Of a DNA stretch of 64,000 nt, positions 33,157 through 60,819 are shown in pieces. The stretch comes from Obelidium mucronatum. Taxonomy: Eukaryota > Chytridiomycota > Chytridiomycetes > Chytridiales > Chytriomycetaceae. The DNA is taken from contig JAIVFH010000010.1 of the NCBI GenBank assembly GCA_025765595.1, positions 372,001-436,000 on the forward strand. Direction: 5' to 3'. Position 1 is the first letter of the stretch; every line of letters starts with the position of its first letter. The translations under genes were made by a program, and so were the position numbers. The notes beneath the pieces were generated by a model that searched no databases, was not told where the DNA came from, and worked only from the letters and a program-made list of their open reading frames with translations.

Positions 33157-33255
33157 ATGTTATATTACATAGACGTGGGGTAAAATATAATCTAATTTCA
33201 TGATCTTTGGTGACCCTAATTCCTCATGGTTTTTTTCTGGAGTTTTTTTCTTATC

Positions 33256-34251: not shown

Positions 34252-34377
34252 AACCCGGACAATCCGTTGTACATACCTTTTTGATGATGTAAAATATGCG
34301 AAAATACATAGTATGTCCTGCTGAACTCGATTCTAACTGCCTTTTTTTGATCAATCAATCAGTCAATCACCAAAACC

Positions 34378-37113: not shown

Positions 37114-40100
37114 CTCCCCTTGAACAGGCCCATCTCGCGCGTGAAATCTCCATGCTTACTTTTACCCAAACCTTTCGTCATCACATCCCCCACATTTCTC
37201 GACGTGTGAATCTTCCTTACTTCGATGACTCCCCTCTTTACCATACACCTCAGCATCATGTACTTTGTATCCATGTGTTTCGTCTTGTGTCTGTCCGCCC
37301 CTTCCTGCGTATTTCTCACAGCTCCAGCATTGTCGCAGTGAAGCACCGTTGGCCTCGGTTGTGGGAATCCAAGCCATTCCATGACGTTCCTCCCCCATTC
37401 CGCAATCTTCCCACCGCTTGCGAGTGCCAACGTCTCTGACGCTACTGTTGAGTCTGTTACAATTTCTTGACTTTTCGACACCGGAGCTATGGCTGCGCCG
37501 GCCAGCATCATGACAATTCCTGTTGTTGATTTTCTCGTGACCTTGTTTCCGGCTAAGTTCGCGTCACTGAATACTTCCAGTATCATGTCCGTGTCAGCCT
37601 TGAAGTACAGTTTTGTCGTGTTGGAGCCGTTCAAGTACTGTAGTAGATGTTGTGCCGCCGCCCAGTGGGTCCTGTTGGGGTTATTGGCGTAGGAGCACAT
37701 TCTGCCTAGAGTTTCAATGATGTCCGCTCTGGTGAGGCATGCGAATCGTAGCAGTCCCAGTAGTCTCATCCATCTCCCCTCGAAGAACGCAATGTCCTCA
37801 CTTGGAGTTGGTTGGTCCGTATCGAAAGTGTCTTCCAATTTTGAGTTCCATGGAGTCGATCTTGAAATTGGCTTGTTTCCTGAAAAATATTTTTCTTCCA
37901 GAAATTCATCGATGATGCTTTGAATGTATACCGTCTGGTCCATGGTAGAGTACCCCTTGTAGTATTCGCAGTTGATTCCAGCCCACATTCCGATTCCCTC
38001 TTGCCACTTCACTTCGACTTTTGTAGCTAACCATTTCCAAAACTCTAGGGTGTCTTCCTGAAATTTGCAGCCAAGCTTTCCGTCGTCGGAGTGCCAAAGT
38101 GTGTACATGATTCCTCCGGTCTTCTTTGATGTGGCTTTGAAGAGACACGGCGAGCCGGGGCATTCTTCGAATCCATATTCAGCGAGGAACTCGTTTCTAA
38201 GACACTCCCAGAGGTAAGCACCTTGTTTGAGGCCGTAAATTCCTTTTAAGGCTAACAACACTTTTCCTTTGTCCTCTTCTCCTAGTTGCATTCCTTGAGG
38301 GATTCTGATGTGGATTACTTTGTCGATATCCGAGTTGTGGTAAGCACCTTTTACATCCCCTTTCGACATGTGGAGACCAAGGTGCGTGCAAATGGCTTGG
38401 AATATTTTTGCTGATTTGTGGTATGGAGTTGAGGCAAAGACCTTGTCGTATTCGCTGGAGAGTTGTTTTGAACCGTTGATGACTAGTCGCGCCTTCTTCT
38501 TCTTCGCCCCCGTGCTTTCATCTACCTTAATTTTTAATACCCAAATTGTATTCAACAGGTGCTGTCCTGCTTCGGCTTCGACTAGTTTCCAAGATGCCTT
38601 TTCCGTGAATTGGTCCAGTTCCTCATTGATCGCCGCTACCCACTCTTTGTCCTTCGAAGCTTCTTTGATGTTCTTTGGTCCATCGATGGTTCCGAATGCG
38701 AGGCCTCTTTTCAGGGCTATGAAGGCTAAGAAAGTTGGTTCGTGAATCATGTATCCAGTGTCGTCATCGAGTCTCGCAAGTCCAGCAAAGAGGGCTAGTC
38801 GGTTTGGTGGCTTTGATTCTCTTGGGGACCGTCTTGGTGGCGTTTGAGGAGTTGGAGGTGGAGAGTTAGCGCTGCTGGGGTCTAACGATGGCAGAGAGGT
38901 GGTGCTTGGGGATTCGCTGCAAACAGAGGATGTTTCCAGCATGTCTTCATCTTGGGGTTCATAGTTCGAGCTGGAGTTGTCCTGGTAGGTTTCCATGCTT
39001 TCGTCTTGGGTATCCTCCCCATGGTTTTGGATAATGCGTTCCAGCTCCGCTACGCTCCTCTCAATGTCCATGTCCTCGGATCTGTCTTCTTCTTTCTTCT
39101 TTTTTGATGTGGTATCCTTCACGTTGACGAAGTCTTCGTCTTCATCCCGCCCTTCGTTGTCGTGATGATTGTTGTATTGAGTTAACTGAATCTTTTCCAT
39201 AGAAGTCTTCGGGTTCTCGACGTCGAATTGGTTCTCGACAAAGAATACGTCTCTGCTAATCACCGTGCTGTTGTCTTCGAAAAGGATTCTGTATCCCCGT
39301 TGTGTGTTCGCTTGCCCATCAGGATAGGCGTAGGATATGAAGCGTCCTCTCCTTGCTCGGTCTTGGGTTTTCCCGCCTCCTGGAATGAAAGGATACGCCA
39401 AGCATCCGGGGACTCGGAGATCTGATACTGTTGGCTTGCGCTTGAATGTCATTTCGTACGGGGTGAGTGGCATTGATGAGTGTTTTGATCTGTTCCAAAC
39501 GTGACATTTGCACTCCAGTAGGTCCGGCCATAGGTCCCTTGGAATTTTTGTTTCAGATAGGGTCGCTCTGACTCCGTCCATTGCAGTTCGAAACCAGCCG
39601 TCAATTTCTCCATGTTGGTTGTGAGCGCCAGTGGAGGTTGTTATCAGCCGGATCCCGGCTTCATGGCATGCGTCTTTCAACGTTGATCCCGTGAAGTTGC
39701 TACCTTGGTCAGAGTATATTTCTTGCAGTTTTTCGCCAGTAGTTCTTTCTAACATGTCTTTTACCCATAGGATAATATTGCTGGCTTCCTCCATCTTCAT
39801 GGAGAATAGTTTGAACATCAGTCTCAGTTGAGTCCGGTGGACGTTCACTCCTAGGTAACCAATGACTCCGCCTCTTCCTATTCTTGTCATGCCATCTTCC
39901 CCTTTTCCTGGGAATCCCACGTCCATTGATATTTGTGATAGAATGTTCCCGTCTCTTGGTTTCTTTTTGTTGTATGGTTGCTGATGGCTTTTTCCTAGGA
40001 CACAGTCTTCGCAGAAAAAATCCTTGATGGTCTTCGGTCCGTCGATTTTGAGTCCATGCACTACTTTCGAAGTTTCTATTATCTGGTCCGGTGACGCGTG

Positions 40101-41723
40101 CATGAATCTGGAGTGCCACAGTTGGATACTCTTTTCGCTGGGGATTCCCTTCCCTATGAAGGCTTTTGCTAGTAGTGCTTGGTCAGCAGGTATGGTGTTG
40201 ATTTTCCACGTTCCGTCTTCTTCGTCGACACTCTTTAGTATTTTGTGTGGACCTGACAAATCCAGACGGCCGATTGCTACCTTCTTGTCGATGTGGTTGA
40301 ACCAGACGTCATAGCCCTTTTTTAAAAGGTCAATGACTGCGATGGGAGTTGCCGGTGCTTCGGGGACTAGCTGTATTTGATCAACCTCAAATTCTCCAAA
40401 ATTCATGGACCCTTGGATTCCGGCGCTCTGGATGTTGTTGCCTGAAGCAGTTTCATAGGCTATTGTTGGTCCTGTTTCTTTGTTGGACAGTTGGTTTTTG
40501 TCGCCCGTCATGGATTTACTGCATGCTGAGTCGAGGTATGCCGGAGACTTGATTTTTGAAACTGGAGCAGAGATGTAGGCGGACATCGTAGCTTTCGCCA
40601 CCTTTATTTCGGCTCCGTTCAACACCTTCCCATCCTTTTCCTTCACTAATTTTTCAACATCCAGGCTTGTGAATGGTTTCTCCAAGACGATTATGGCATA
40701 TGTTCCGCCGGATTTCTTCGACACTGCGACAAAGGAATCTTCAGCGAGTTTGGTTGGCTTGAATAATTCCGCAACTTGTTGGATTGATGTTCCGCTAGCC
40801 AGTTTTGTGATCACTAGTTGAGCTGGTTTTCTGTCTGATGGGACTGGTCGCGGCTGTCGAGGTTTGTTGCTCCCTTCAAATCTGGCTGCCATTGCTTTCA
40901 CTAATTCCATCATAACGGCCATGTTGGGGTCGGTTTGTTGAGTCGCCGCTGCCGCTATGGCTTGGACTGGTTGCGCAAGTTTTTCTTCTTCCCTGGCAGC
41001 GATAACTGATAGAACACGGGCGAATGCCTTGTAGTCGTCTGGAGGACATCCGGTGAGTTGAGTTCTCATGTTGTCCCTTTGTCCATGGTCTTCAATTCCG
41101 TAAACTAGGGTGTAACCGCATTCCTTGTTCCAATTTTCATCATCGGGCTGGCCTAGCTCTTGTGCCTTTAGCTTCAGAAGGTTGAATCTGGTGAACCATT
41201 GGTACTTGGATTCGTGAGAGTGTTTCTTGGCTGTGGAAACGTCTCTTCTCGCCTTGGAAAGAGCTTGGCCGGGGTTGAATGCTATGGTAGCTGCAAGAGC
41301 ATCAAATCTCGCTTTGATTGACCCAGTGGCAGAGTTGTAGGAAGCAAGTAGTGTGGCATCAAGGTGAGGAGTTACTATTTCGTTTATCTTTGATGACACT
41401 TCATTCCAGGTCGAGAATGCTTCAAAGTATTTGTCTTCGTTGAAGCTGTTGCCGGCATTGAAGGTTGGGTCGTCTTCCGAAGGCTCAGGGATTTCGTAGA
41501 CAATGAAATCTGAGTAAAGGCGGACTGTCTTTGTGGATTGAAATTCAGCTCCACTGTTGTCGAAAGAGATAATTGTTGGTTTGTAGTAGTACGCTTTTTC
41601 GAGCTTGTTCTTGTTGACTGCAGATCTAACACTTGCAAGCCAGGAAAATGAATGGTAGCTCTTGTTCTGAGTCGTGAGTGGTTCGAAGCTCTGTCCTCTC
41701 TTGAGGATGTAGGTCGTAGCCAT
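37014..41723 (-). CDS. Copia Gag-Pol polyprotein
   Basis: 1569 aa in one frame. Gag is N-terminal. The protease active site reads YLDSACSKSMTGD. Integrase has the HHCC finger (WHSRFMHASPDQI ... FFCEDCVLGK) and a DDE core with SMDVGFPG, IYSDQGSNFTG and HGEIDG. RT has KGDVKGAYHNSDI (motif A) and YGLKQGAYLWEC. The catalytic motif C reads LWHSDDGKLG, HSDD where copia RTs usually show Y-x-D-D. RNase H follows (VFSDANLAGN, SETLALASGGK, LHCDNAGAV, DTKYMMLR). The last residues lie inside the 3' LTR. No stop or frameshift between gag and pol is present, so Gag/Pol ratio must be set otherwise. Confidence 0.95.
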   Translation of the reverse strand: MATTYILKRGQSFEPLTTQNKSYHSFSWLASVRSAVNKNKLEKAYYYKPTIISFDNSGAEFQSTKTVRLYSDFIVYEIPEPSEDDPTFNAGNSFNEDKYFEAFSTWNEVSSKINEIVTPHLDATLLASYNSATGSIKARFDALAATIAFNPGQALSKARRDVSTAKKHSHESKYQWFTRFNLLKLKAQELGQPDDENWNKECGYTLVYGIEDHGQRDNMRTQLTGCPPDDYKAFARVLSVIAAREEEKLAQPVQAIAAAATQQTDPNMAVMMELVKAMAARFEGSNKPRQPRPVPSDRKPAQLVITKLASGTSIQQVAELFKPTKLAEDSFVAVSKKSGGTYAIIVLEKPFTSLDVEKLVKEKDGKVLNGAEIKVAKATMSAYISAPVSKIKSPAYLDSACSKSMTGDKNQLSNKETGPTIAYETASGNNIQSAGIQGSMNFGEFEVDQIQLVPEAPATPIAVIDLLKKGYDVWFNHIDKKVAIGRLDLSGPHKILKSVDEEDGTWKINTIPADQALLAKAFIGKGIPSEKSIQLWHSRFMHASPDQIIETSKVVHGLKIDGPKTIKDFFCEDCVLGKSHQQPYNKKKPRDGNILSQISMDVGFPGKGEDGMTRIGRGGVIGYLGVNVHRTQLRLMFKLFSMKMEEASNIILWVKDMLERTTGEKLQEIYSDQGSNFTGSTLKDACHEAGIRLITTSTGAHNQHGEIDGWFRTAMDGVRATLSETKIPRDLWPDLLECKCHVWNRSKHSSMPLTPYEMTFKRKPTVSDLRVPGCLAYPFIPGGGKTQDRARRGRFISYAYPDGQANTQRGYRILFEDNSTVISRDVFFVENQFDVENPKTSMEKIQLTQYNNHHDNEGRDEDEDFVNVKDTTSKKKKEEDRSEDMDIERSVAELERIIQNHGEDTQDESMETYQDNSSSNYEPQDEDMLETSSVCSESPSTTSLPSLDPSSANSPPPTPQTPPRRSPRESKPPNRLALFAGLARLDDDTGYMIHEPTFLAFIALKRGLAFGTIDGPKNIKEASKDKEWVAAINEELDQFTEKASWKLVEAEAGQHLLNTIWVLKIKVDESTGAKKKKARLVINGSKQLSSEYDKVFASTPYHKSAKIFQAICTHLGLHMSKGDVKGAYHNSDIDKVIHIRIPQGMQLGEEDKGKVLLALKGIYGLKQGAYLWECLRNEFLAEYGFEECPGSPCLFKATSKKTGGIMYTLWHSDDGKLGCKFQEDTLEFWKWLATKVEVKWQEGIGMWAGINCEYYKGYSTMDQTVYIQSIIDEFLEEKYFSGNKPISRSTPWNSKLEDTFDTDQPTPSEDIAFFEGRWMRLLGLLRFACLTRADIIETLGRMCSYANNPNRTHWAAAQHLLQYLNGSNTTKLYFKADTDMILEVFSDANLAGNKVTRKSTTGIVMMLAGAAIAPVSKSQEIVTDSTVASETLALASGGKIAEWGRNVMEWLGFPQPRPTVLHCDNAGAVRNTQEGADRHKTKHMDTKYMMLRCMVKRGVIEVRKIHTSRNVGDVMTKGLGKSKHGDFTREMGLFKGSVDFHEFWKRHSENAFSARFGTYRKNGTNRKSW
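37114..37122 (-). other. Copia polypurine tract
   Basis: CAAGGGGAG on the element's sense strand, directly abutting the 3' LTR. It is the expected primer site for plus-strand DNA synthesis. Confidence 0.7.
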
Positions 41724-46239: not shown

Positions 46240-48102
46240 TCAGTAGTAAACGCCAAGCGACGTTTTACTTCTCCGCAGAATATTTGAAGGCCTCGAACAA
46301 GATCCAGCAGAATCGAGATTCAATCGACTGATTCTCAACATTCCTTCATCTTCAATCGTTGCAGGATAATAGTCCGCAGCTGCAGCAGAAGCAGTGGTAG
46401 CCCCAAACAAGTAATCAACATAACTCCTTCGAGGAGTCATTGACGCTGTGGTTGTGGTCGTATTCGGAATGGAACTATTTATCGAATCGTATCGCGGGAT
46501 ATTGGATTCACGAAACAATTGCGCCATGGAGGAAGTTGAAATCAGAGGGAAGCTTGAGGACGGACGTCGCGATAATCGAATTGGATCGAGTTGATAATTC
46601 TGAGGGTGTGTGGGTATCATGTTGGTGGAGGAGTTGACTAGGGATGAGCGAATCGAGCAGGATGGCGGCCGCTGTTGATGCTGTGACAGAGGTGTAACTG
46701 AAGTTACAGATCGACGTTGTTTGAGGTAGTTCCAGTGGTCAGAATCGTCAGTAGAGGCTTGTGGAGGTTTTGAAGTTGATGATCCACCGCCTCCGGTAGT
46801 ATTTGATGCATCTCGCGCTGCTTTGACACGTTCAGAGGCTGTTGCGGGTCGTAGCTCGCCGTATTCTTCCCTGCTAGTGTATTTCTTTGTGACAATCATG
46901 TTGGAGTTTGCAAGCGATTGATGTAGTAAATTATTGTGTGTTTCGTAGTCGCGATTCGAAAGGCCGCCGGGTGGTGTAGAAGATATAGGGTATGCTTTTG
47001 CAAATGTCATGGGCGTGTGTTGGACATAGGAGGCTTTGGGTGCAAGTCCCGATACAGGACGAAGAGACTTTTCGAGAGCGAGAAGAGTTTGTCGCCGTTG
47101 ACGAGGTGTCATTCTTGGAATCGATTGTTGCTGTTGTCGTGCAGAAAGAAGACGATTGGTTTGAATTTTTCTGAATTGCGCACCGACGTCTTGAGAATGG
47201 GGGTCCCAAAAACTGCACCATGTATCATCGGGAGTCGCACTCTCGGTTTCTGGTTGATCCCTTTCGTCGAATACTTCTTCTTCTTCTTCAAGTCCTTGAC
47301 TATCCCTCTTCCTCGGTTTCGAAAGATTTGATTTGACTTTGACGCGAATTGAATCTTCCAGTAGATTGTTGTTTTCATTGTCATGATCATCGATTCCAAA
47401 TTCCTGGTCAATGTCAGCCAACGTTTCACCCTTGTTTTCTTTTTGCAAGACTCTCTTCCCACGCGGTACTTGTTGAAATTGCTTCTGCACTTCCGCGTAT
47501 TCGCCTTCACCTGGTAAATCCCCCCCGCCACCTGGCTTTCCCAGCTTCACGTGCGGCATGGGAATCGGATACGGGTTTTCGGCCATCAGCTTCTGCAGCA
47601 GCAGGGTGTCTGAGTCGTCGGCGCCCCAGGCGCACACGGCAAACTGCTCGCAGGCGGCGGGTTCGAGCGCCGACTCGGCGGCGTTGTGTGCGGCCAGCGA
47701 CACGACAAACTCGACGACTTCGACGCCGTCGTCGCTGCCGCCGTCGTCGTCCGCCTTTCGCCGCACTGTCGCCGACGCGACGCGCGGCTTCGCGCTGTGC
47801 GCCTCGCGCGCCTCTTCCTGCTCCCGCTGCAGCTGGTCGACGAGCCGCGAGCGCGCCGTCGCCGACGCGGCGCCGCTGGGCGGCCGCGCGGCAAGCGACA
47901 CGCCGGCGGCGCGGACGGGCGTCGGCGGCGTCGCTGGTTGTTCGCGGTGTTTCGCGTTCAAGTTGTTCTTTGCCTTCATTGCAAACACAAGCTTCTGGCG
48001 CGTCGCCGGCGTCGGCGTCGGTGTCGGCCGCAGTTTGCCCGCGTCGCAAGTGCGGAACGCCGAGGGCGGCAGCGCCGCGAGGGGCATGTTGACCACACTC
48101 AT
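46240..48102 (-). CDS. 620-aa disordered protein, unknown
   Basis: Single exon from ATG 48102. Residues 1 to about 190 are Ala/Arg/Pro-rich and encoded by very GC-rich DNA (47520-48102) containing a short coiled coil (RSRLVDQLQREQEEAREAH). The remainder is normal in composition: acidic and Lys-rich (GLEEEEEVFDERDQPETES), a WCSFWDPH patch, a Q/R stretch RQQQQSIPRMTPRQRRQ, then Ser/Thr/Asn-rich sequence with RRSYVDYLFG near the end. No domain was recognised. The abrupt base-composition switch inside one exon is unusual. It is divergent from the VWA gene, 187 bp away. Confidence 0.6.
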   Translation of the reverse strand: MSVVNMPLAALPPSAFRTCDAGKLRPTPTPTPATRQKLVFAMKAKNNLNAKHREQPATPPTPVRAAGVSLAARPPSGAASATARSRLVDQLQREQEEAREAHSAKPRVASATVRRKADDDGGSDDGVEVVEFVVSLAAHNAAESALEPAACEQFAVCAWGADDSDTLLLQKLMAENPYPIPMPHVKLGKPGGGGDLPGEGEYAEVQKQFQQVPRGKRVLQKENKGETLADIDQEFGIDDHDNENNNLLEDSIRVKVKSNLSKPRKRDSQGLEEEEEVFDERDQPETESATPDDTWCSFWDPHSQDVGAQFRKIQTNRLLSARQQQQSIPRMTPRQRRQTLLALEKSLRPVSGLAPKASYVQHTPMTFAKAYPISSTPPGGLSNRDYETHNNLLHQSLANSNMIVTKKYTSREEYGELRPATASERVKAARDASNTTGGGGSSTSKPPQASTDDSDHWNYLKQRRSVTSVTPLSQHQQRPPSCSIRSSLVNSSTNMIPTHPQNYQLDPIRLSRRPSSSFPLISTSSMAQLFRESNIPRYDSINSSIPNTTTTTASMTPRRSYVDYLFGATTASAAAADYYPATIEDEGMLRISRLNLDSAGSCSRPSNILRRSKTSLGVYY

Positions 48103-48289: not shown

Positions 48290-49860
48290 ATGGCTCGGTC
48301 AAAAACTCTCCACTTGTATCCGTCGTACGAAGGATATATCGCAACGATAGATGTGATGACATCGGATGCACCTAGTACCCAAACAGTCTTCAACAATGTT
48401 GTGTTTCTTGATATCTCCGGATCCATGGGAAACAATGTTCAAAAAGTCGTGAATGAAATCCTTCCGATAATGTTTTACAAACTCCGGTGCAAGCCCACTG
48501 ATTCAGTGAAACTGGTAACCTTTGACTCAGTATCTGATGTTCATCATTCCACGGTGGCCAGATTAAAGGAGCTACCAATCCGCGCTAAAGGAGGTACTTA
48601 CATGGCTCCGGGTATCAGCAATCTTGAAAAGGTTTTACTTGCTTTGGCTGATGATCACAACAACACGTTACGCTTGTTGACTGTGTCCGATGGCGAAATA
48701 TTTGATACGGAGGAAACACTGAAAAAGGCATCTGTTCTCTCTGCTTGGTCCAAGAGTCGAAATATGAATGTGGATTCGCAAGCAGTTCGGTTCATGTCTT
48801 CAACTTATGCACAGCCGGATACCCGAGCTTTGTGCTCACTGCTTCAGTTAAATAATTCGATTGCTTCAGCAGTGGATGTGTCTTCAAATCTCGATGCAGA
48901 GGCTGCTGGAATGGAGTTTGCAAATCTGTTTGATTCGACTTTATGCGCGTGCACTCTAGAGATTAAGGTATTGACATTCTTAACCAAGTAATGGAAAGAG
49001 TTTACTAAACCTAATCTCATTCCAAAAACGATTAGAATCCAACAAATACCAATCATCCGAAATTCAAATTATTTCCATGGAATAAAGCCGGAACTTCCGT
49101 GATTCGACTTGTTGAGGGCCGGAATGTATTCTGGATTGACGGAATTCCATCAGAATCAGAATTGAGTGTAAACGGAGAACCAGGAAGCCTCCAAATACTT
49201 GTCCACGACGACACAGAACTGTCTTCTCAAGCCTACGAGTCACTCCTGTACCACAAACTGTCTATAATCATTAACCAAATCAAGGTCCTGAAAATCGTAA
49301 ACACGCCAGACGCCATCGCCAACATCGCTACAATCCATGACTACTTTTCCGGTCTTGAACAAGACCTCCGACAACGGGATCAAACAGCTCAAGCCAAACT
49401 CGACACCGCATCTGGATCCTCCTCACCAACCGACTCTCGCAACAGTCTAGCGAACCGTGTCACCCGCCTCAAAACATCCATCACAAAACGATCTCGCTCC
49501 ATCCTCCAAGAACTCCTCCAAATCGCCAACGACAACAAAGTGAATCAACTCAACTCTGCACAACAAGCAGCGTACCTCCGCACCGCGGACCTCTCCCGAA
49601 ACTCCAAAGGCCTCGCGAAACGCGCGTTAAACTCGTCCACCGGTCTCGACTTTGACGAAATCGCGCGCCAGGAAGTACGAGCAATGCATTCCCACTTGGA
49701 CGAATTGACGGAAATCAACGACTCCAATCACGAAAAGTCCTTTTTTTCTTGGGATACGACTTTAGGCGGGATCCGAACCGTCTGTCAACTCGTGGATGAT
49801 AACCTTCTTGACAATGCATCTGCAAATGAAATCCTTGAGTTGCTTAATATAGTGGGTGTT
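48290..49860 (+). pseudogene. VWA-domain gene, 5' part (split by element)
   Basis: Exons 48290-48967 and 49036 onward. The N-terminal von Willebrand A domain has the MIDAS motif FLDISGSMG with conserved downstream Thr (GGTYMAPG) and SDGE. The second exon adds a beta-rich region and long helices (LRQRDQTAQAKLDT; SRSILQELLQIANDNK). The frame reads ...ELLNIVG and then runs into the left LTR at 49857. Continuation is found beyond the element at 59058. Without the insertion and one TGGG copy the gene would be 1086 codons in one frame. As it stands, a truncated protein with a few LTR-encoded residues is expected. Function unknown. Confidence 0.85.
49853..49856. repeat. Gypsy target-site duplication TGGG, left
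   Basis: TGGG precedes the left LTR and recurs at 59054-59057 after the right LTR. Removing the element and one copy restores the VWA reading frame exactly. Confidence 0.85.
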
Positions 49861-50865
49861 ACAAGTACAATAAATTCTTGTTTGTTTTTATAGTTTTTGG
49901 TTCGTGTGATAGTATCCAGCAATTAAGTTCGAAGACTTGAAATTGTTGGCGTCAATGTGGCACAGTAGGATAACACCAGTTAACCTTTAACACGCGTTCA
50001 ATCAGTTCCAACGCGTCCAAAGTAATAGGCAATAGCAATAAAAGCGGATAAAAACCTTTAACACGCGTTCAATCAGTTCCAACGCGTCCAAAGTAATAGG
50101 CAATAGCAATAAAAGCGGATAAAAACCTTCGCAATAATTCAGATACGTTAACTTATGTGGTAAATCCCAATCAATCGCTCCAATGCAATATACCTTTAAC
50201 ACGCGTTCAATCAGTTCCAACGCGTCCAAAGTAATAGGCAATAGCAATAAAAGCGGATAAAAACCTTCAAAAGCGTAAAAGAAGAATACAAGAGATTAAA
50301 ACCACAAAAATCCGAACATTTATTTGTTTGTACCTTCGCAATAATTCAGATACGTTAACTTATGTGGTAAATCCCAATCAATCGCTCCAATGCAATATAC
50401 CTAGAGTTCCCCAACCATTGTTAACATATCCCTTAACACTCCTTCCTTCAAACCTTTAACACGCGTTCAATCAGTTCCAACGCGTCCAAAGTAATAGGCA
50501 ATAGCAATAAAAGCGGATAAAAACCTTGATCACAAAGAAAAATCCCTCCATCAGTAATAAAAAAGGAGGTAAAGAAAGAATAAAAACCTTCAAAAGCGTA
50601 AAAGAAGAATACAAGAGATTAAAACCACAAAAATCCGAATAAAGAATGATAAGTGGGGGAAGAACATCAAGTTTATATAGGAAAAGCAAAACAATAATAA
50701 AAAAAACAATGATAAATAAAAAGTCCGAGACGATCAGCCACAAAGAACTGGGCGATCGCTCTAGGAGAATTCCTGGTGTTGGTTTTGAAGCAGCGTCGGC
50801 CGTTCCGCGGAAATCTCGAAAATCAATGAAGAAATATTTGACGCAAAACCCGAGTGCGAGTAACA
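49857..50865 (-). repeat. Gypsy 3' LTR (left copy)
   Basis: 1009 bp from TGTTAC to GTAACA. It matches 58045-59053 at an offset of 8188; one difference (G at about 50568, A in the other copy) was seen. It encodes the last 34 residues of the pol frame at 50761-50865. Confidence 0.93.
49984..50640. repeat. Modular internal LTR repeats
   Basis: Three repeat modules, all beginning CCTT, are shuffled inside the LTR. A (about 71 bp, starting CCTTTAACACGCGTTCAATC) at 49984, 50055, 50193 and 50453. B (about 67 bp, CCTTCGCAATAATTCAGATA) at 50126 and 50333. C (about 53 bp, CCTTCAAAAGCGTAAAAGAA) at 50264 and 50588. The right LTR carries the same set. Confidence 0.85.
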
Positions 50866-53800
50866 GTCCTTTGAACCCAGCGGTAGCAATGCGTCGTCCC
50901 CTGACGCAGAGAAAACAGAGACTTGAGCCACATGGAAAGAATTCCCAACAGAGACAGCATCAGTTACTTCTTCAAGCGAGACAAGCTCAGATAATTCGTC
51001 AAGGTCTTCAAACGGATCAATGATAGTACTGGTGAGAATAGCAGAAATCAACGGGTGGACATCAGAATCAGAAACTTCAACTTCATCCCAAAACAGCGTC
51101 GTAGAACTAAAAGCCATTGGAGGATACCAGAGCTTGAGATGGTCACCAGAAACAGGACGCTTGCGTTTTCTTCCGTCTAATTCCTTCAAGACATAGGTTC
51201 CCTCGCGAACATCATGAATAATAAACGGACCATACCAGACATCCTTCAACTTGCGATGAAAATGATCGTGCATGTTTGAGTCGAAGATAAGAACTGCATC
51301 GCCAATATTCAAGCGCTCAGACCGCAGTTGTTTCTTGTGTTTTTCATTGTAGTAATCCGCGCCTTTCTTTCGATTCTCCTCAATTTGGCGTTTTACATGT
51401 TCAAGATCCGAAATGCGACGCTCCAAGACTCGCATTCTTCCAGCCAATAAGTCAACCAGAGACATTCCTTCGCGAAAATTGATGATAGAAAATGATTCTT
51501 GAACAATATCCAGATGCATAAACGGCTGCTGATAATAAACAATTTCGTATGCTGAATATCCGCGATAATTCGTGTGAATATTTGCAGCCAAACATGCGTT
51601 AGAGACGCGTTCCGCCCACTTCTTCGGATCGCTTCGACAAGACCTTGCAATCGCGCCCACTAATGGAGTATGTCGCCGTTCGCCAGGACCAAGACCTTTA
51701 TGATTGTGAGGAGCTATGAGACGGATTTCAATTTTGTACAAATCATAAATTGCCCTCGCATCCTTTGAAGACATTGAGCTCGCGTCGAAACAAAATAATG
51801 CCGCATAGCCGTAACGATGTAATACATCCTGAATGGTCCATTTCATAGCCGCTTCCCAAGTTTGACGCTTGAATGCTTTCGCTTCGTTGAGTCCAGAAAT
51901 CCCTTCAGTCAAGTGCCATAACTGCCGAAAGCCGTTCCCAGTTTCCGGAAATTCACACCAGTCGCCATACCAAACCAAGAATAATGTCGTTGGAGTCTTT
52001 GAAGGTCGCACCGCCTCTTTTTGACGTTGAAAGGCCATTCGCTGACAATCATCACACCGATCGCAGAACTCCTTGACATCCGTTCGTAAAGTTTTCCAGT
52101 AGTACCGAAGACGCAAAGTTAGATATGTTGCTTCAAACGCCGCATGACCGCCGCCAACACCCGCGTGTGCTTCTTTGATTAATTGAAACTGAATATCCCG
52201 CTTGACCACAACTCGTTTAGGAATATTATCCTTCGACCGTCTAAACAAAATCCCATCGCGCAAATAGAATCCAGTTGCTTTCCGCCGAATAAAAGACTTT
52301 TTCTTTTCTGTTATGCTTTCCGAAAATCCAAAAGTATCCAGATAGTGTGCGATATGGTTCAATTCTTCGTCCGCTGAATAATCTTCTTGAAGAACGTAGG
52401 CGCGCGATCCGGCAAAACGGCAGACAGATACAGAATTCAACATTCGATCGATAGAATCGTCAAGCTCATCTCCATCGTATAGAACTTCAGACTTGTCTTT
52501 TTCGTCATACATTCGAGTGAAAGCGTCGACTATATTGTCCTTTGAAGCCACCACCTCAAACTCAATCGGAAATGTCAGAATATAAGAAATCCAGCGGCGC
52601 ATAGCCATATCGGAATTTGATGGATCGTTGATCATTCCTTTCAAGTAGAGTGCATCGCCGACAACCTTGACACACGGCGCCAATCGAATATGACTTTCGG
52701 CTCGTTTAAGACCCAGAGACAATGAACGTAGTTCCTTCTTGACAATGTGCCAGTCGAGTTCACCAGACGAAAACAAACCGCTGAAGAAGTGTGAAACCCT
52801 TAAACGACCTTGATCGTCTTTCTGCCCCAATGCTTGCGCTTCTGCTTCTTTCGCAGCGTCAAAGTAAAGGTATGGTGGACGACTTACAAAAGCGGCATAA
52901 TCCAGAGTGCAACGGACAGGTGCGTGCAACATAGCATTTTTCAAATTTTCAAAAGCGACAAATTCGCTATCACTCCAACTCCAACCAATCCCTTTGCGAG
53001 TGAGACGAAACAGCGGAGCCGAGAGCAAAGAAAACCGATGGATCCACTGCCGAAAGAACGAACAAAGATACAAGAAGGATCGTAGCTTTTCAAGTGAGTT
53101 AGGACTTGGAAACCGCACCATAGCATCCAACTTCACTGGATTGATCTCACGACCTTCAGGACCACAAATGACGCCAGTTACAAGCGTCTTCATCAATGCT
53201 AAATCGACTTTCGCACCGCTGAAGGTAAGACCCGAATTGATTGCTTGTTGACACATCCATTCAATGACAACCGCATGTTCTCGAACAAAGTCTCTAATAC
53301 CGTCGAATTCAGGTTCATCATCGCGAACAGGACCGCTTCCAGACGCAGCAGAAAGATCATCTGCATACGCGGAGGTATTTCCAGTCCCAGGAGTTACGAA
53401 GACAGACGTAGTGACCCTCTGAGTAATAGCCATAGAATTGCAACCACCTTGAGGTAAGCCCGTATTTCTTATTTGACCAATCGGAGTATTAATAGCCGTC
53501 ATATCTCGACTTTGAACAGCAAGAGGAATCTGGTCAAACGCGGACATCATATCAAACGCCGAGACCAGTTTCTTTCCAGCAATGCGCTCGGTCATGTCTT
53601 CAATCAGGGGGAGACCGCCAGCATCGCGAATGGTAACCGAGTTCATATCTTGTCCATCCATTATAGGTCTAAATTTACCGTCTTTCTTAACCAGTGCCCA
53701 CCATCGATTAGCATATGGAGAACTGCACAACTCATGAAGACCCGCATCAATCCGCTCCTTATAAAAGGCAGTAACGGCATCGAAAATGGCAGGAGGAACC

Positions 53801-55035
53801 GGACGGACTTTGTGATTCCAAGGCTTGTGAGGAACAGTATGGATAACCGCAGGAGGACTATACTCAGGCTTCACGCGACCTAGTTCGGCCAATCTAAAAG
53901 AAAATGCCGTGGGATACTTGCGAACAGATTCTTTGAGGAATTCGTATTCAGCGTCGCGAAGGTAACCAGGATTTTCCTTTCTTGACTTAGCAAACATTTT
54001 ATCCAGTCGTTCTTCTGTTAAACGCGGAGTAGGAATCAAGTCCACTGGAACCGACGGAAGAATAAAAGACGGACTACCACCAGGAATTTCAGCCGCTATT
54101 GGACGGACTTTATCGGCAACTTTCTTAGCCTTATTGGAGATAGCGGTAACAGGCAAATCGACGACGCAGATAACAGGTACGTGGTCAGATCCCAACATAT
54201 GGTGGCCATGGACACACGATCTAATAGCTATATCTTTTGAAACTAGCACGACGTCGAAACGCATTCCAAGGTTATCCTTCCGCGAATAGTAATACCAAGT
54301 CGTAAATGCCGAATCATTGGGATGCAGGACGCGAAAACTATCCTGTAATTCCCCAGTCAATTCACGAAGCCAATTACGTTCAGAATCCTGGAATCCAGAG
54401 GTAATCCAGGGAACAACACACGGATGTATATCAGAAAGTTCTTGGGCGACGTTGACATCAGCCCCCAAAATTACTGAAAGCCCCATACTTTTCAATTGAC
54501 GTATTCGAAATAAAATGGCATTATTGAACTTTTCTTTGTATGGCAATCGATGAATATTTCCGCGACTCGCGTTTGGACAATATGCGTTCAGAATAACAAT
54601 TGCACCAAGACAGACTTCTAAATATCGTCCCTCGGATTCAGCGACAGTCATAGAAGGAGGACAACAGATAACACGCGTTGGAAAAACAAACTTGTCCTTT
54701 TTCAGCAGCGTCAAGACACCATTTCGGCATTTTCCAAAACCAAGTTCTTCATGAGGAAATTCAGAGTGGAAGACATGGAATCCGCTTAAATCAAGTGTCG
54801 AAAACTTAGACAAGATATCTTGAGAGACTTTAGATTCTTGAATCAACACGACATCGTAAGACAGCAATTCCTCTTTATTCTCCTGACTCATGATTTTGAC
54901 AGCATTTCTAACTGAATTGACGTTCCAAGAAATAATTGAAATTCTTGAACTCTGTCCATGCACCAATCCAGACTGACAGGTAGTAATATTTTCTAGCATT
55001 TTGTATTTAACGGCCGGTAGCATTCCAGCCTTCAC
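50761..55035 (-). CDS. Gypsy pol: EEP endonuclease-RT-RNase H-integrase
   Basis: 1424 codons. Residues about 32-295 form a full exonuclease-endonuclease-phosphatase fold: ISWNVNSVRN, VVLIQESKVS, NAYCPNASRG, VILGADVNVAQ, RFDVVLVSKD and GSDHVPVI, so every catalytic motif is present. RT follows: KLVSAFDMMSAFDQ, LPQGGCNSMAI, SAYADDLSAAS. RNase H starts YLYFDAAKEAEAQALG. Integrase has the HHCC finger (HAGVGGGHAAFEA to CDRCDDCQ), a DDE core (YGDWCEF, CFDASSMSS, GPGERRH) and a GPY/F-like module (WYGPFIIHDV). The frame overlaps the preceding one by 4 nt at 55032-55035. The first ATG is at 55023. The C-terminus lies in the 3' LTR. Confidence 0.92.
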   Translation of the reverse strand: MKAGMLPAVKYKMLENITTCQSGLVHGQSSRISIISWNVNSVRNAVKIMSQENKEELLSYDVVLIQESKVSQDILSKFSTLDLSGFHVFHSEFPHEELGFGKCRNGVLTLLKKDKFVFPTRVICCPPSMTVAESEGRYLEVCLGAIVILNAYCPNASRGNIHRLPYKEKFNNAILFRIRQLKSMGLSVILGADVNVAQELSDIHPCVVPWITSGFQDSERNWLRELTGELQDSFRVLHPNDSAFTTWYYYSRKDNLGMRFDVVLVSKDIAIRSCVHGHHMLGSDHVPVICVVDLPVTAISNKAKKVADKVRPIAAEIPGGSPSFILPSVPVDLIPTPRLTEERLDKMFAKSRKENPGYLRDAEYEFLKESVRKYPTAFSFRLAELGRVKPEYSPPAVIHTVPHKPWNHKVRPVPPAIFDAVTAFYKERIDAGLHELCSSPYANRWWALVKKDGKFRPIMDGQDMNSVTIRDAGGLPLIEDMTERIAGKKLVSAFDMMSAFDQIPLAVQSRDMTAINTPIGQIRNTGLPQGGCNSMAITQRVTTSVFVTPGTGNTSAYADDLSAASGSGPVRDDEPEFDGIRDFVREHAVVIEWMCQQAINSGLTFSGAKVDLALMKTLVTGVICGPEGREINPVKLDAMVRFPSPNSLEKLRSFLYLCSFFRQWIHRFSLLSAPLFRLTRKGIGWSWSDSEFVAFENLKNAMLHAPVRCTLDYAAFVSRPPYLYFDAAKEAEAQALGQKDDQGRLRVSHFFSGLFSSGELDWHIVKKELRSLSLGLKRAESHIRLAPCVKVVGDALYLKGMINDPSNSDMAMRRWISYILTFPIEFEVVASKDNIVDAFTRMYDEKDKSEVLYDGDELDDSIDRMLNSVSVCRFAGSRAYVLQEDYSADEELNHIAHYLDTFGFSESITEKKKSFIRRKATGFYLRDGILFRRSKDNIPKRVVVKRDIQFQLIKEAHAGVGGGHAAFEATYLTLRLRYYWKTLRTDVKEFCDRCDDCQRMAFQRQKEAVRPSKTPTTLFLVWYGDWCEFPETGNGFRQLWHLTEGISGLNEAKAFKRQTWEAAMKWTIQDVLHRYGYAALFCFDASSMSSKDARAIYDLYKIEIRLIAPHNHKGLGPGERRHTPLVGAIARSCRSDPKKWAERVSNACLAANIHTNYRGYSAYEIVYYQQPFMHLDIVQESFSIINFREGMSLVDLLAGRMRVLERRISDLEHVKRQIEENRKKGADYYNEKHKKQLRSERLNIGDAVLIFDSNMHDHFHRKLKDVWYGPFIIHDVREGTYVLKELDGRKRKRPVSGDHLKLWYPPMAFSSTTLFWDEVEVSDSDVHPLISAILTSTIIDPFEDLDELSELVSLEEVTDAVSVGNSFHVAQVSVFSASGDDALLPLGSKDCYSHSGFASNISSLIFEISAERPTLLQNQHQEFS

Positions 55036-56890
55036 TGAAAACCCGCAGTCTCGGAACGTTCATGCTTTCGTTGCGACGGCGATTCATAGTCAATGACAAC
55101 GCGAGGATCATTAATATTAGTGACTTGCATCTGAACTGTTTTCTTGCCATCGGGTGAGTGTAATTTAGCCCAAACATTACCATAATCATCCCAGCCAGTG
55201 ACACATCGCGTAGTCTTTTTCCAAGGCATACCAAGAAGTAATTGGAACGAAGGTTTCACATTTGGCGGCAACTTAGGTAAAATCCAGACTTGATTAAACG
55301 TTTGAATTCCACCAGCGACTATTGACGCATTTCGAATTAATCCAAAGATCTCCGTTCGAGCGCTATTTGCGGAAACCATGAATAATTTGACGTCTGTTAC
55401 TAACTCATTTACAGAATGACATTTAGACGCTAACTCCATTTGAGCAAAAACCGACTCAGCCCCCTCATCAAGTGGACAATTCGGCAACAAAACAAGATCT
55501 TGAAAGAGGACATTGCGTATAGCCGGAGCTGGATACAAGGCTAGCTGAGTATTAGGATCGGCTAGACGGGCTAAATCCGACTTAGGCACGTCAACAGACG
55601 AGAAATGACAAGACAAATAGGGATCTTTCGCATCATAGAATCGGCTAGACGACATCTTCGACAGAGCGACGTCCTTATCTTTGATGAATGACGCATACTC
55701 ACCAGTCTGTGCGATTGATTCAAAATTACGAATGAAGATGTTGAGCATTGAAGTTGGAACTTCGCTAGGATTTCTAGGATTCGACAGGTACTGTGATGTG
55801 AGGTGTCTTGAAATTTCCTCATTCAGCTTTAGATCCAACATCGGCGGCGGACTTGAAACTGGATTATCCTCCGACAGCGCCGAATTTACGAAATATTGCG
55901 CAGAAGAGTCTGTATTCCCCGAGTCGTATTGCGAAACCACAGAATGCAACTGCATTGGAGTGCCAGGACTGGAATTCTTAGCATCAGAGTACTCGCGCGT
56001 CAGACCAGTGTAAGTGTTCAGAACTTTCCTGACAGGCTCACTGACAATTAAAAGCTCCTCCAACGAAATATTTAGTTGAGTTTGAGCTACTAGTTTCTTC
56101 GCGACTTCTTCAGGATTGCCGTCGCCAACTGGACCCTTTCGAACCAACTTATAAGGACGCTTCTGAGCTGGAGGTGATTGCGCTTGAAATTCGACAGTTT
56201 TCTTTTGCGGAGTTTCAGACTTATCTTCCATAGGTTTCTTAGAAAAAATCGGCTTTAAAATCGGAGGTGGAACCGTAGGCACCGCAGGAATTGACGTCGG
56301 ATTAGGAACATCCTGGAACTTAGCCAGCGGCTTCAGAGCTTCCTCACGACCCATCGAACGAGTCTTTCGACGATCAGCGTCGCCTTCGGCTTCTTCATCG
56401 GCTCGGCGTTTGACATGACTGCGGATTTCCAACAACTCAGCGGCCACTTGATCAACAGTGTAAGGACCGCCGTTTCCAACATTGCGACTAACCATAGAAT
56501 TATGTGTCTCGTTTAACTCCTCTTCAGTAACATCAACGCCACACATGACTTTGAAGACATCAACCGCAAGGAAAGTTTGCCCCTTTGGATCGTCCAGCAA
56601 CATAGCACCACCATGAAAATCAGGAATCGACATTGGCTCATAGATTATATTTGCGGTAAGTACTGAGACATTAATCGCATGCGCCGTTCCTTTCAATTCT
56701 GACCATTTCTCATTCTTGACTTCAGATTTAGAAACAGGAGAGGGAATCCAAGGCTCATTCTTCAAAGTGCAATTTTGAGAACACTCAAGAACTGAATAAT
56801 AGTTATCGTCAAAGTCCGAATCTTCAGACTCATAGTCCGCGGTGTCCCAAATAGGTACAGCTTTGAAGGTTTTGAAGACGCCACTGCTGT
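55032..56890 (-). CDS. Gypsy second frame, retropepsin-like region
   Basis: Opens upstream of the gag stop in the -1 frame: convincing coding (VPIWDTADYESEDSDFDDNY) begins near 56855, overlapping gag by about 100 nt, so ribosomal -1 frameshifting from gag is likely. The body is about 600 aa, Lys/Pro-rich, then a retropepsin-like domain with CPLDEGAESVFAQ in the place of the D-[ST]-G site and SFQLLLGMPWKK near its end. It stops at 55032, 4 nt inside the start of the pol frame. The D-E-G active site is atypical, so proteolytic activity is inferred rather than shown. Confidence 0.7.
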
Positions 56891-58000
56891 TTTACTCTTT
56901 TCTTTTTCGATTAAAGCCCTAACTCCACCATTTCTTAGATTGCTGAGAGGGACTTTCTCTCCCTGGAACTGGAATTCATGTTTCCCAAACTTAGTCTCAA
57001 CGTAAGTAACAGGCCAACCGTTTTTCACATCTTGAATAAACTGTTCACATTTAGATGGATCGCGCGACACAGCATGTGTCTTCTCGCTGGTACCACAATA
57101 TGCGCAAAGAAAGTCCGGCCGCTGCCCACCAGTTGTACCTGCCGCTGTTGACGCTGGCTGAGTACTAATTTTTGAAATAGCCGCGAGTGCCTTCGCGTGG
57201 TTTAACTGCATTTCCGCCAATTGTTTCGCCAATTCATCCACAGAGGTATTGCCCACAACCTCTTTAGGCGGATCAGGTTTCTTCACTTTCTTTGATTTTC
57301 TTTTCTTTTTGCTGACTTTTTCACTTTCAGAACTGCTGGAGCTTGAAGATTCGCTATCCGAAGACTCCGAACTAGAATCCTCCTCGGCATCACTGGAACT
57401 TTCATCACTAGAACTATCGGACCGCTTCTTGCGACGGGATCCTTTAGACACTGCTTTCGTTGATCTTTCCAGTTTGTCCAAGGTAGTAACCACTTTGCAG
57501 AAATTTTTCCAGTCATTATTCTGAACATTATCCGCTCCAATAATTTTATCCAGAATAGCTCGAACTTTGCGTTCCGGTAATCCTCGAAGGAAAGTTTTTA
57601 CCGCAACCGCATCTCCTGGCTTCGCGTTGTCGTCCATTGCAGTTAAGACCGAATTATATTCTCCCAAGTATTCCGCGTCGCTAACAAAAATTCCACGCGA
57701 CCGTTGCTTTCTTGCCATTTTGTCCAAATCCGCAAGACTGTAGATGATATCTTGATCTTTATAATTGGTTGCAAACCAATTTGTCAATTCTTTGAAGTTG
57801 ATGGTTTTGGTTTGTCCAGCCGCCCAAACCGCGTATTCCTTATTGACTGCTTGAGAGACCATAGCCAATAAATAATTGATTTGTTTTGAGTCACTATCCA
57901 GACCCTTTTTCCCAATTTGTTGAAGAATGTAGTAAATAAATTCCGTGACTCTTGGTCCTCGAAATTGATGTGTTTTGAAATAATCCTTCCTTTTGCCCAT
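56762..58000 (-). CDS. Gypsy Gag protein
   Basis: 412 aa from ATG 58000. The N-terminal capsid-like region contains LADLDKMARKQRSRGIFVSD and VKTFLRGLPERKVRAILDK. A long Ser/Glu/Asp tract and a Lys-rich patch follow, then a probable zinc knuckle variant (LCAYCGTSEKTHAVSRDPSK) and QGEKVPLSNLRNGGV. The last 40 or so residues overlap the next frame and look non-native, consistent with many ribosomes shifting -1 before the stop. It packages element RNA into virus-like particles. Confidence 0.85.
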   Translation of the reverse strand: MGKRKDYFKTHQFRGPRVTEFIYYILQQIGKKGLDSDSKQINYLLAMVSQAVNKEYAVWAAGQTKTINFKELTNWFATNYKDQDIIYSLADLDKMARKQRSRGIFVSDAEYLGEYNSVLTAMDDNAKPGDAVAVKTFLRGLPERKVRAILDKIIGADNVQNNDWKNFCKVVTTLDKLERSTKAVSKGSRRKKRSDSSSDESSSDAEEDSSSESSDSESSSSSSSESEKVSKKKRKSKKVKKPDPPKEVVGNTSVDELAKQLAEMQLNHAKALAAISKISTQPASTAAGTTGGQRPDFLCAYCGTSEKTHAVSRDPSKCEQFIQDVKNGWPVTYVETKFGKHEFQFQGEKVPLSNLRNGGVRALIEKEKSKTAVASSKPSKLYLFGTPRTMSLKIRTLTITIIQFLSVLKIAL

Positions 58001-58030
58001 ATTGACTGACTACCACAATAGATTTAAAAT

Positions 58031-58043
58031 GGTACGCTCGCCA
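58031..58043 (-). other. Gypsy primer-binding site
   Basis: On the element sense strand TGGCGAGCGTACC begins one nt after the 5' LTR. It would pair with a tRNA 3' end GGTACGCTCG plus CCA. The tRNA species was not identified. Confidence 0.65.
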
Positions 58044-58044
58044 C

Positions 58045-59053
58045 TGTTACAAGTACAATAAATTCTTGTTTGTTTTTATAGTTTTTGGTTCGTGTGATAG
58101 TATCCAGCAATTAAGTTCGAAGACTTGAAATTGTTGGCGTCAATGTGGCACAGTAGGATAACACCAGTTAACCTTTAACACGCGTTCAATCAGTTCCAAC
58201 GCGTCCAAAGTAATAGGCAATAGCAATAAAAGCGGATAAAAACCTTTAACACGCGTTCAATCAGTTCCAACGCGTCCAAAGTAATAGGCAATAGCAATAA
58301 AAGCGGATAAAAACCTTCGCAATAATTCAGATACGTTAACTTATGTGGTAAATCCCAATCAATCGCTCCAATGCAATATACCTTTAACACGCGTTCAATC
58401 AGTTCCAACGCGTCCAAAGTAATAGGCAATAGCAATAAAAGCGGATAAAAACCTTCAAAAGCGTAAAAGAAGAATACAAGAGATTAAAACCACAAAAATC
58501 CGAACATTTATTTGTTTGTACCTTCGCAATAATTCAGATACGTTAACTTATGTGGTAAATCCCAATCAATCGCTCCAATGCAATATACCTAGAGTTCCCC
58601 AACCATTGTTAACATATCCCTTAACACTCCTTCCTTCAAACCTTTAACACGCGTTCAATCAGTTCCAACGCGTCCAAAGTAATAGGCAATAGCAATAAAA
58701 GCGGATAAAAACCTTGATCACAAAGAAAAATCCCTCCATCAGTAATAAAAAAGGAGATAAAGAAAGAATAAAAACCTTCAAAAGCGTAAAAGAAGAATAC
58801 AAGAGATTAAAACCACAAAAATCCGAATAAAGAATGATAAGTGGGGGAAGAACATCAAGTTTATATAGGAAAAGCAAAACAATAATAAAAAAAACAATGA
58901 TAAATAAAAAGTCCGAGACGATCAGCCACAAAGAACTGGGCGATCGCTCTAGGAGAATTCCTGGTGTTGGTTTTGAAGCAGCGTCGGCCGTTCCGCGGAA
59001 ATCTCGAAAATCAATGAAGAAATATTTGACGCAAAACCCGAGTGCGAGTAACA
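58045..59053 (-). repeat. Gypsy 5' LTR (right copy)
   Basis: 1009 bp, TGTTAC to GTAACA, with the same modular repeats as the left copy (offset 8188). Expected to carry the element promoter. Confidence 0.93.
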
Positions 59054-60819
59054 TGGGTGTTCCTTGCATCAGCAGTATCGGGAACTTCCCGGATTCAATG
59101 AGTTACCGGGTTGACCAAGTCCTATTTGGTTCATTTGTATCCATGAGTGATATCCTCACGTACCAGCTCCAAAGCAACGGTGAAACCATTAAAATGCCTG
59201 GAACCAACGCTGAGGTTGTAAACGCAATCCCCCTGTTTGAAGACCCCCGCCTCGCGAAATTCTACTGCCAATACGCGCCAAAACTTCTCGAATTCACGTG
59301 TAGCATTGGAATGCGGCGGTTGATTGCGGATGTACCAATGTCGTTTGGGTATTCCGTGTTGGCAGGCTTTTGGAGAATGGTGGAGTTGATTGAGACGAAT
59401 AAGACGGAGTTGTGTGCGAAAATCCTTGTTTGTTTGGGGGAGTCGTTGCAGGTTACTGTTGGTGGTTATGTGAAGCATATTTTGCCTTTTTTCGATCAGA
59501 AGGCGTTGGCGGCGAAATCGGCTGTTGTGGGGGAGGGAGGTTTTTGTTTTGATTTGGGTGGGAATGGGATCTCCAACTGCTTGTATCCCATCATGCATGC
59601 CTTGCAATCGGAGGATAAAGATGACTTCATGAAGTTGTCGCTACCAGCAGCGCTTCGTGCATTGTACTCTTTTGAAGTGTGGGTGGCGATCCGAAAGTTG
59701 TACCGCCACCAAGAGAAATCAAACGAAGCCATCCAAGAAATGTTCCAAAAGCTGTTTTGCGTGGACTTGGAGTCCTCGCGACTGGTTCCAACGCCGCTTT
59801 TCGAAGCGGATCATGAAACCCCGTTGTTCAACGACACGTTCAAAGTGAACGAGGCGTACTTTGAGGAACTCCGCCAGAAATTCTATTACGTGGATGGGAT
59901 CCACTTGATGGGCCCGGTCCTCTCCATTGTCGCTGACAAGTCCCTGAACCTTGTCGACAAGATTAAACTCTTGCAAACTACACTGCCGAAACCGACACCC
60001 GAGAGAATGAGCACCGCTCTCAACCTCAGCTACGACTTCAAAACCTTCCAAGTCTACACTGTCGCACAGGCGCTCCTGTATCCAACAAAGTCAACTCGAA
60101 TCGACGACGAAACAAAACAATCAATCCTCCCCGACGTCGGGGGAAACCCATCCACCACCGGCCCCCAAATGATCCAAAAACGAATCCGAGAGATGCATAG
60201 CGAGCGGTACACGCAAGACTTGAAACTCAAGGCATCCCAGGAACACGCGCTTCTCACAAAAGAATTAGTCGACAGGATGATTGCGACCGACAACCTGAAC
60301 GAATTCTGCAACTTATTCCGGGACGGATTAACTCGCGGCAACGGACCAACCCCCTCCAAAGCCCAGATACTAAACCCAGCGTCCCCCGGGTTCTCAGACC
60401 TAACAACCCAACTCTTGAGCCTCGAAGCAACAATCCCTTGTCAAGTCCCTAAAGCCCGGATCCTCCTACTGGGCCGCATGCCGATCCGGAAACACCGAAA
60501 CGAAGAAACAGGACGCCTAGTCTGGAACAATGGGAACGTGTTTGGGTTCGCAGACATCCCGAAATTCGAAGCACTATACAATCGGTATGGGATGGTTGAT
60601 TCTTGGATGGATGATTTGAAAGAGTTTAATGAACGTCGGAAACATGTGTATCGAGAGGGGCGGGAGAATCGACATGGTCATTCGAACGGGAAGGTGTCGT
60701 ATTGGGGGTTGGGGTACTCGAGTATGCGGGAGATGAGGGAGAAGGTGTCGGAGGAGATTTTGAGGGAGTATTTGGTGGCGCATGTTGGTTGTTGTGTTGA
60801 TGTTACTGCGAAAGAGTAG
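59054..60819 (+). pseudogene. VWA-domain gene, 3' part (split by element)
   Basis: Frame-exact continuation of the VWA gene after the insertion: VPCISSIGNFPDSMSYRVDQ onward, about 587 codons to TAG 60819. It is helical and rich in Leu/Lys, with YYVDGIHLMGPVLSIVADK and a C-terminal KILLLGR-like strand (ARILLLGRMPIRKHRNEETG) and GFADIPKFEALY. The region has no domain I can name. It stays fully open with no stops or indels, so the interruption is recent. The TGGG at 59054-59057 is the second target copy. An ATG formed at 59053-59055 by LTR end plus TGGG could in principle start a separate 3' protein. Confidence 0.85.

Follow-up and report, generated by a model that had tools for sequence, protein, structure and literature searches.

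The element and its insertion site

The window analysed here is a stretch of 64,000 nucleotides from the chytrid Obelidium mucronatum (contig JAIVFH010000010.1, positions 372,001 to 436,000), and our subject is a long terminal repeat (LTR) retrotransposon on its minus strand (49857..59053), whose pol gene carries an apurinic/apyrimidinic (AP) endonuclease-like EEP domain. The limits of the element are set by its LTRs, by a target-site duplication (TSD) and by a host reading frame that is open across the empty site. The LTRs lie in direct orientation, are 1009 bp long, and show one difference between the 5' copy (TGTTAC...GTAACA; 58045..59053) and the 3' copy (49857..50865). The TSD, CCCA, occupies 59054..59057 on the 5' side and 49853..49856 on the 3' side. 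When the flanks are joined minus the element and one copy of this 4-bp duplication, a host frame of about 860 codons is open across the site; the host gene lies on the plus strand, with portions ahead of the insertion (48290..49856) and beyond it (59054..60819). Because the LTRs differ once, the CCCA is duplicated and the host frame opens on removal of the element, we take the insertion to be recent and to lie within host coding sequence.

All internal features lie on the minus strand. A candidate primer-binding site (PBS), TGGCGAGCGTACC (58031..58043), was read from the sequence one nucleotide past the 5' LTR; searching by exact pattern for a tRNA gene whose acceptor stem would match it gave no hit. 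It is followed by a gag open reading frame (ORF) of 412 residues (56762..58000), homologous to gag in sister copies, by ORF2 (55032..56765), which we presume to be the protease region from a DEGA-like motif seen by eye and in which Pfam found no match, and by the pol ORF (50761..55035). Matches to EEP (54150..54945), reverse transcriptase (RT; Pfam RVT_1, with YADD in the translation; 52966..53850), RNase H (Pfam; 52486..52965) and the integrase H2C2 zinc-binding domain (Pfam Integrase_H2C2; 52027..52260) follow one another along pol in that order. The integrase catalytic core (51301..52026) has no Pfam match (rve) in the window copy; its D-D-E residues are nevertheless kept and align with those of relatives. 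The order RT-RNase H-integrase, with H2C2 and D-D-E, is the one that Ty3/gypsy requires, and the 4-bp TSD with TG...CA ends is of the integrase type at this insertion, the sole site examined at base level. In the pol homologues that turned up, RT, RNase H and integrase belong to gypsy-type Pfam families; the trees described below contain no named reference element. The element is thus a young Ty3/gypsy LTR retrotransposon with a complete EEP domain in pol, much as a first-pass annotation of this DNA had described it: a very young gypsy-type element with LTRs and a DDE integrase.

The LTRs also hold repeated units of 71-83 bp (49982-50527 and 58170-58715), and the LTR of the sister copy C151 was observed without part of this array.

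The gag and ORF2 frames are separate in the window copy, and gag is likewise split in the copy C295; in the sister copy C93 the two are joined as one frame of 991 residues, and in C493 as one of 1009 residues. The pol frame lies -1 relative to ORF2, whose end reads GCG GGT TTT CAG TGA, so that a heptamer G GGU UUU, of the form X XXY YYZ and in the phase of ORF2, stands one codon before the stop (55038..55044). This candidate -1 frameshift site into pol, GGGTTTT, is identical in four of four copies of the window's group (group A) examined, and the conserved slippery heptamer suggests that the EEP domain may be delivered as part of a Gag-Pol product. Because the candidate site links pol to the upstream gag/ORF2 frame, the domain would come after the presumed protease region and before RT. 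The annotation's statement that pol opens with the EEP domain is therefore right in that EEP precedes RT, and needs amending in that a frameshift would put the presumed protease region in front of it.

The EEP domain, its copies and its history

The Pfam search of the window copy placed PF03372 at pol residues 35-285 (E 2.4e-11), and the catalytic Asn, Glu, Tyr, Asp-Asn, Asp and Asp-His are all present, as are the motifs that the annotation had named. The annotation had further regarded the domain as the hallmark of long interspersed nuclear elements (LINEs); here our result differs. The window domain scored 132.6 bits against TIGR00633, the curated exodeoxyribonuclease III profile with a cut-off of 99.05 bits, and all seven EEP domains of LTR elements tested from this genome (the window copy and six others) passed, at 116-146 bits, whereas neither of two LINE-type EEP domains from the same genome did (90.0 bits and no match; in the second of these controls RT sits in a neighbouring ORF). 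PDB matches at E<0.001 for EEP domains of the groups that we call A, C and D (defined below) were ExoIII/APE enzymes and the ExoIII-like Crc, with no LINE endonuclease among the rows listed (for A, the best 60 of 66, which include four weak esterase matches at E 0.022). For a LINE-type control of the same genome, in contrast, L1 endonuclease entries ranked first, headed by one named LTX, which we take to be an L1 endonuclease variant. A LINE-derived endonuclease is accordingly rejected as the identity of the domain, which is, judged by its sequence, a repair nuclease of the ExoIII/APE1 type. The anatomy of the element and the family of its EEP domain, taken together, are in our view virtually certain.

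Searching the same genome with the EEP domain gave 57 matches, fragments included, and 20 places passed the ExoIII cut-off; only the best candidates were scored, so these counts are lower bounds. All 18 of the places that were fetched contain integrase parts (H2C2 or core) and 17 contain an RT match, which is partial in C601, C649 and C53; the remaining one, C33, has RNase H and integrase only. At the other two places, a D-type RT (C77) or a D-type RNase H piece (C128) lies just upstream on the same strand. We distinguish four groups. EEP stands ahead of RT in A (the window's family and C493) and in B, with a spacer to RT of about 450 residues in B versus about 100 in A, and it stands between RNase H and the integrase zinc finger in C and D. 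Repeats in the same orientation flank B, C and D elements (about 220, 182 and 1046 bp, respectively); those of D are 12-17 kb apart, which makes nested insertions possible. A D element also gave a weak Asp_protease_2 match (19.5 bits, below the cut-off of 24.3). For many of the genome's gypsy-type RTs, no EEP match is listed nearby.

Four A copies with an intact pol frame lie on different contigs and differ by about 21% at synonymous sites in EEP. They are mosaics: C151 and C93 are nearly identical from RNase H through integrase, though not in other parts, and about 8% different over EEP (L021-L023, compared with 50761-55059 of the window), a sign of recombination between elements. Two further features of EEP elements in this genome may be recorded. 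At C167:12526-31077, three decayed A-family EEP/RT stretches are spaced 8.9 kb apart, perhaps a local tandem duplication, and the spacer between EEP and RT in group B holds a 124-nt repeat, 81% alike (L026:4187-4571).

The fusion extends beyond this genome. Chytriomyces confervae protein P0128, annotated merely as 'hypothetical protein', and the metagenome protein P0129 both carry it; they are the two best of 69 pol homologues, and EEP is listed in none of the other 67. Against TIGR00633, P0129 passes (129.5 bits), and the truncated P0128 (94.8) and P0008 (97.3) fall just below; P0008 is a fragment of an EEP domain from a contig of 1616 bases and shares 40-42% identity with A2 and B. A scan of a viral contig collection with the pol alignment gave 26 pattern matches and no relatives, and in the open-licence literature of PubMed Central (PMC) we found no paper on transposable elements of Chytriomyces. 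The annotation had allowed that the EEP segment might be unique to this copy, as an assembly chimera or a one-off capture; the A copies with intact pol on different contigs, the 20 places above the ExoIII cut-off and the relatives in C. confervae and the metagenome refute this, and we give it next to no weight.

A different combination of an ExoIII domain with an RT was also encountered. Bacterial-type proteins of about 950 residues (P0001, P0002, P0003, P0005-P0007; L050:2001-4844, L051:2001-4819) have the ExoIII domain first, followed by a group II intron-type RT with a maturase domain. Relatives occur in one Oscillospiraceae and one Selenomonadaceae genome. In PADLOC, where 58 and 50 models matched, the top 25 of each set are RT, RT-Cas1 and homing-endonuclease models.

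The examined catalytic positions are kept in every row of LTR elements that covers them, in groups A to D and in the outside relatives, and A and B also retain an Arg at the position of APE1 Arg177, which is linked with the handling of abasic sites. Pooled over the six pairs of the four A copies, the ratio of nonsynonymous to synonymous differences (pN/pS) is 0.13 for EEP, 0.03 for RT and 0.04 for integrase; each pair departs from neutrality (p<=1.2e-10), the pairs not being independent given their shared history. The EEP ratio is 0.035 for the pair B_C26-B_C196 and 0.14 for D_C601-D_C33, the latter with synonymous divergence (dS) near saturation, and dS is saturated or undefined for two B pairs, D_C625-D_C182 and D_C625-D_C601; the pair A_win-A2, out of frame with 13 stops, was left out of this comparison. 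As these ratios indicate, the domain is maintained under purifying selection, less strictly than the core enzymes. The annotation's expectation that it is retained is borne out by the ratio of 0.13, by the kept catalytic residues and by its presence in many copies.

Visualizing the relatedness of the sequences in separate trees for EEP and RT, as the annotation had proposed, we found ABC and D to be distinct. The EEP tree has 42 rows (21 of 41 ExoIII rows, LINE and P0004 were left out and two rows were added); the quick RT tree has 70 rows, with 60 of 69 homologues passing the coverage filter, and the RT tree used for the approximately unbiased (AU) test omitted 21 of those 70. ABC and the outside relatives fall into a single clade of the EEP tree (support 100/99), and D into a second (100/100). 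The RT tree likewise has a clade of ABC (99/97), the row nearest to it in the quick tree is a Chara braunii element without EEP, and ABC and D as a single clade are rejected (AU p=3.4e-6). Since the RT tree rejects that clade, the domain has probably been gained at least twice by lineage of RT; that the ABC and D lineages acquired it separately is, on these trees, a conclusion we hold with considerable confidence. The source of the gains was probably cells or exchange between elements, the alternative being many losses. Joining ABC with D in the EEP tree has support 74/83, a value that neither establishes nor refutes the grouping, so that one transfer between elements may have occurred. Group C is sister to the rest of ABC in the RT tree and pairs with P0129 on a long branch in the EEP tree; because C falls within the ABC clade in both trees, EEP has also changed position within pol. 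These two positions and the probably two acquisitions go beyond what the annotation foresaw.

The host has an APN2/APE2-like gene, named by eye, at C51 (L049). It looks unlike the EEP domains of the elements and may be a distant source of them.

Proposed role of the domain and alternatives

The explanation that we favour overall is that the pol-borne AP endonuclease serves as a repair enzyme that the element carries for its own complementary DNA (cDNA); we would give it about an even chance, and the cDNA-repair role taken by itself an even chance at most. A -1 ribosomal frameshift would make a polyprotein in the order Gag, protease, EEP, RT, RNase H and integrase, and the nuclease would enter the particle along with RT and integrase. 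There it would act upon the element's own DNA copy, cutting the abasic sites that arise from spontaneous base loss or uracil removal and clearing blocked 3' ends; with the cDNA cleaned in this way, reverse transcription could be completed and integrase would receive clean ends. The likeness in pol position to the dUTPases discussed below speaks for this reading. HIV-1 is reported to use the host uracil-DNA glycosylase UNG2, and as for APE1, one study reported it in HIV-1 particles, where others did not find it (PMC2427051).

Several observations weigh against this proposal. The domain is less constrained than RT or integrase, and in the near-identical D pair C625-C182 there are 2 nonsynonymous changes and no synonymous one, too few for a judgement. 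C493 has GGATTTT at the position of the heptamer, which speaks against delivery by frameshifting. In the window copy neither pol nor gag nor ORF2 matches the dUTPase profile PF00692; its five matches in the genome are on contigs C23, C34 and C204, none of which has a listed EEP match, and no listed dUTPase or uracil-DNA glycosylase match in the genome coincides with an EEP element, so that uracil removal would fall to the host. The equivalent of APE1 Trp280, a residue described as helping to flip the abasic nucleotide and replaced by Ser in the L1 endonuclease (L1-EN; PMC8565326, in part), is Met in A and B, Phe in C and Trp only in D; because of this replacement, abasic specificity may differ in the window's lineage. 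Finally, the main role of host APE1 with HIV-1 seems, from the part of that account concerned, to be degradation of edited nascent DNA (PMC2427051), and for this reason the cutting of abasic sites can also harm cDNA.

The main rival is processing of 3' ends or primers independent of abasic sites, which we think unlikely and yet deserving of attention: an ExoIII-like 3'-5' exonuclease, 3'-phosphatase or RNase H-like trimming activity would act before integration on cDNA ends, on remnants of the tRNA or polypurine tract primers, or on the one additional base that separates LTR from PBS. The curated family to which the domain belongs is that of exodeoxyribonuclease III, only 1 nt separates the LTR end from the PBS-like TGG, the domain adjoins the integrase zinc finger in C and D, the replaced Trp280 equivalent in A, B and C may mean that strict abasic specificity is relaxed, and a precedent exists in the DEDDy 3'-end nuclease captured by rotifer LTR elements (PMC5408684, in part). 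However, A and B retain the Arg that corresponds to Arg177, and other Ty3/gypsy-type RTs, some in this genome among them, have no listed EEP match alongside, so end processing does not depend on EEP in general. Less likely than end trimming, and rather improbable, is a role at the target site, in which EEP would nick chromosomal DNA or steer the integrase complex to nicked or abasic sites in a LINE-like manner. Related LINE endonucleases do nick targets, EEP stands beside integrase in C and D, and the Trp280 equivalent is replaced in A, B and C as it is, by Ser, in L1-EN (PMC8565326, in part); the domain is, however, of the ExoIII and not the LINE type, and the element has H2C2 and a D-D-E core, with a 4-bp TSD and TG...CA ends at the one site examined.

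A slightly lower probability still attaches to the view that the captured repair gene is a passenger or structural domain, retained because it helps folding, spacing or binding and not because it is catalytic. The looser constraint relative to the core enzymes and the variable position between groups would fit such a domain, but all examined catalytic residues are kept in A to D and in the outside relatives where covered, the pN/pS of EEP is 0.13, and acquisitions were probably separate.

Returning to cDNA repair, we put forward a fuller hypothesis, more tentatively and at somewhat below an even chance: that an ExoIII/APE1 enzyme was taken up independently by gypsy lineages, in the two positions within pol that dUTPase occupies elsewhere, that self-encoded abasic repair lets cDNA damaged by base loss or by a uracil-based host defence be completed and integrated, and that ABC, in which the flipping Trp is replaced, may be heading towards a new nuclease specificity. 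The usual view is that LTR elements and retroviruses depend on the host for repair. If the hypothesis is true, cDNA damage would be a pressure strong enough for elements to carry their own, and the system would offer a direct test of whether base-excision repair limits or helps retrotransposition. The series Trp, Met, Phe would be a natural one in which to follow how APE specificity evolves. The presence of an EEP domain no longer suffices to call a retroelement a LINE, which matters for automated classification.

Two other features of the window lie outside this argument. A second LTR-type element, read by eye, is represented by an ORF for a Ty1/copia-like polyprotein of 1569 residues (37014-41723, minus strand). 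At 16498-35238 (plus strand) and also at 46240-48102 there are neighbouring serine-rich ORFs, some basic helix-loop-helix-like by eye, with a recurring R-x-TP-x-QIM-like motif; this run suggests a local family of transcription-factor-like genes.

Comparison with known systems

With the Ty3/gypsy elements (Metaviridae) the window element shares LTRs, TSD, the order RT-RNase H-H2C2-DDE integrase and the RT and RNase H Pfam families; it and its relatives differ in the extra ExoIII/APE1 domain, placed before RT (A, B) or in the gap between RNase H and integrase (C, D). The domain resembles the ExoIII/APE1 family in passing the curated cut-off and keeping the catalytic residues, and departs from it in being fused inside a retroelement polyprotein and, in A, B and C, in the replaced Trp280 equivalent. 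An EEP fold and an RT within one element are also found in the non-LTR LINEs with an APE-type endonuclease, which lack LTRs and integrase; unlike the seven LTR-element domains tested, both LINE-type EEPs tested from this genome miss the ExoIII cut-off, and for the one that was compared the L1 endonuclease is the first match.

Whether an element of this architecture had already been described was a question left by the annotation; in open-licence PMC literature, the scope of our search, with Repbase and subscription papers outside it, none of the papers listed describes an AP endonuclease within the pol of an LTR element. For 25,565 consensus elements from plants, one screen gives 15 additional domains by name, with no such nuclease mentioned in the portion of that paper cited here (PMC9289625). 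The captured nucleic-acid-processing enzymes closest in kind are the AlkB demethylase of orchid gypsy elements and the DEDDy exonuclease of rotifer elements, which, in contrast to the EEP domain, are described as lying in an additional ORF or ORF3 and not inside pol; the relevant parts of these accounts mention no AP endonuclease (PMC9289625, PMC5408684).

In logic and position there is a likeness to the elements that bear a dUTPase, such as rotifer Juno, Vesta and TelKA, Postia PosPlaTy3 and some retroviruses, in that an extra enzyme for nucleotide or DNA quality sits in pol and was apparently gained repeatedly. As described in the sections of those studies that bear on it, dUTPase lies between protease and RT in rotifer and basidiomycete elements, in other slots in Postia and between RT and integrase in some retroviruses, and its gains in LTR elements and retroviruses were apparently independent (PMC5408684, PMC2864245). 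The two kinds of element differ in the step concerned: their dUTPase acts on the nucleotide pool, whereas the AP endonuclease of the elements described here would act once damage has occurred.

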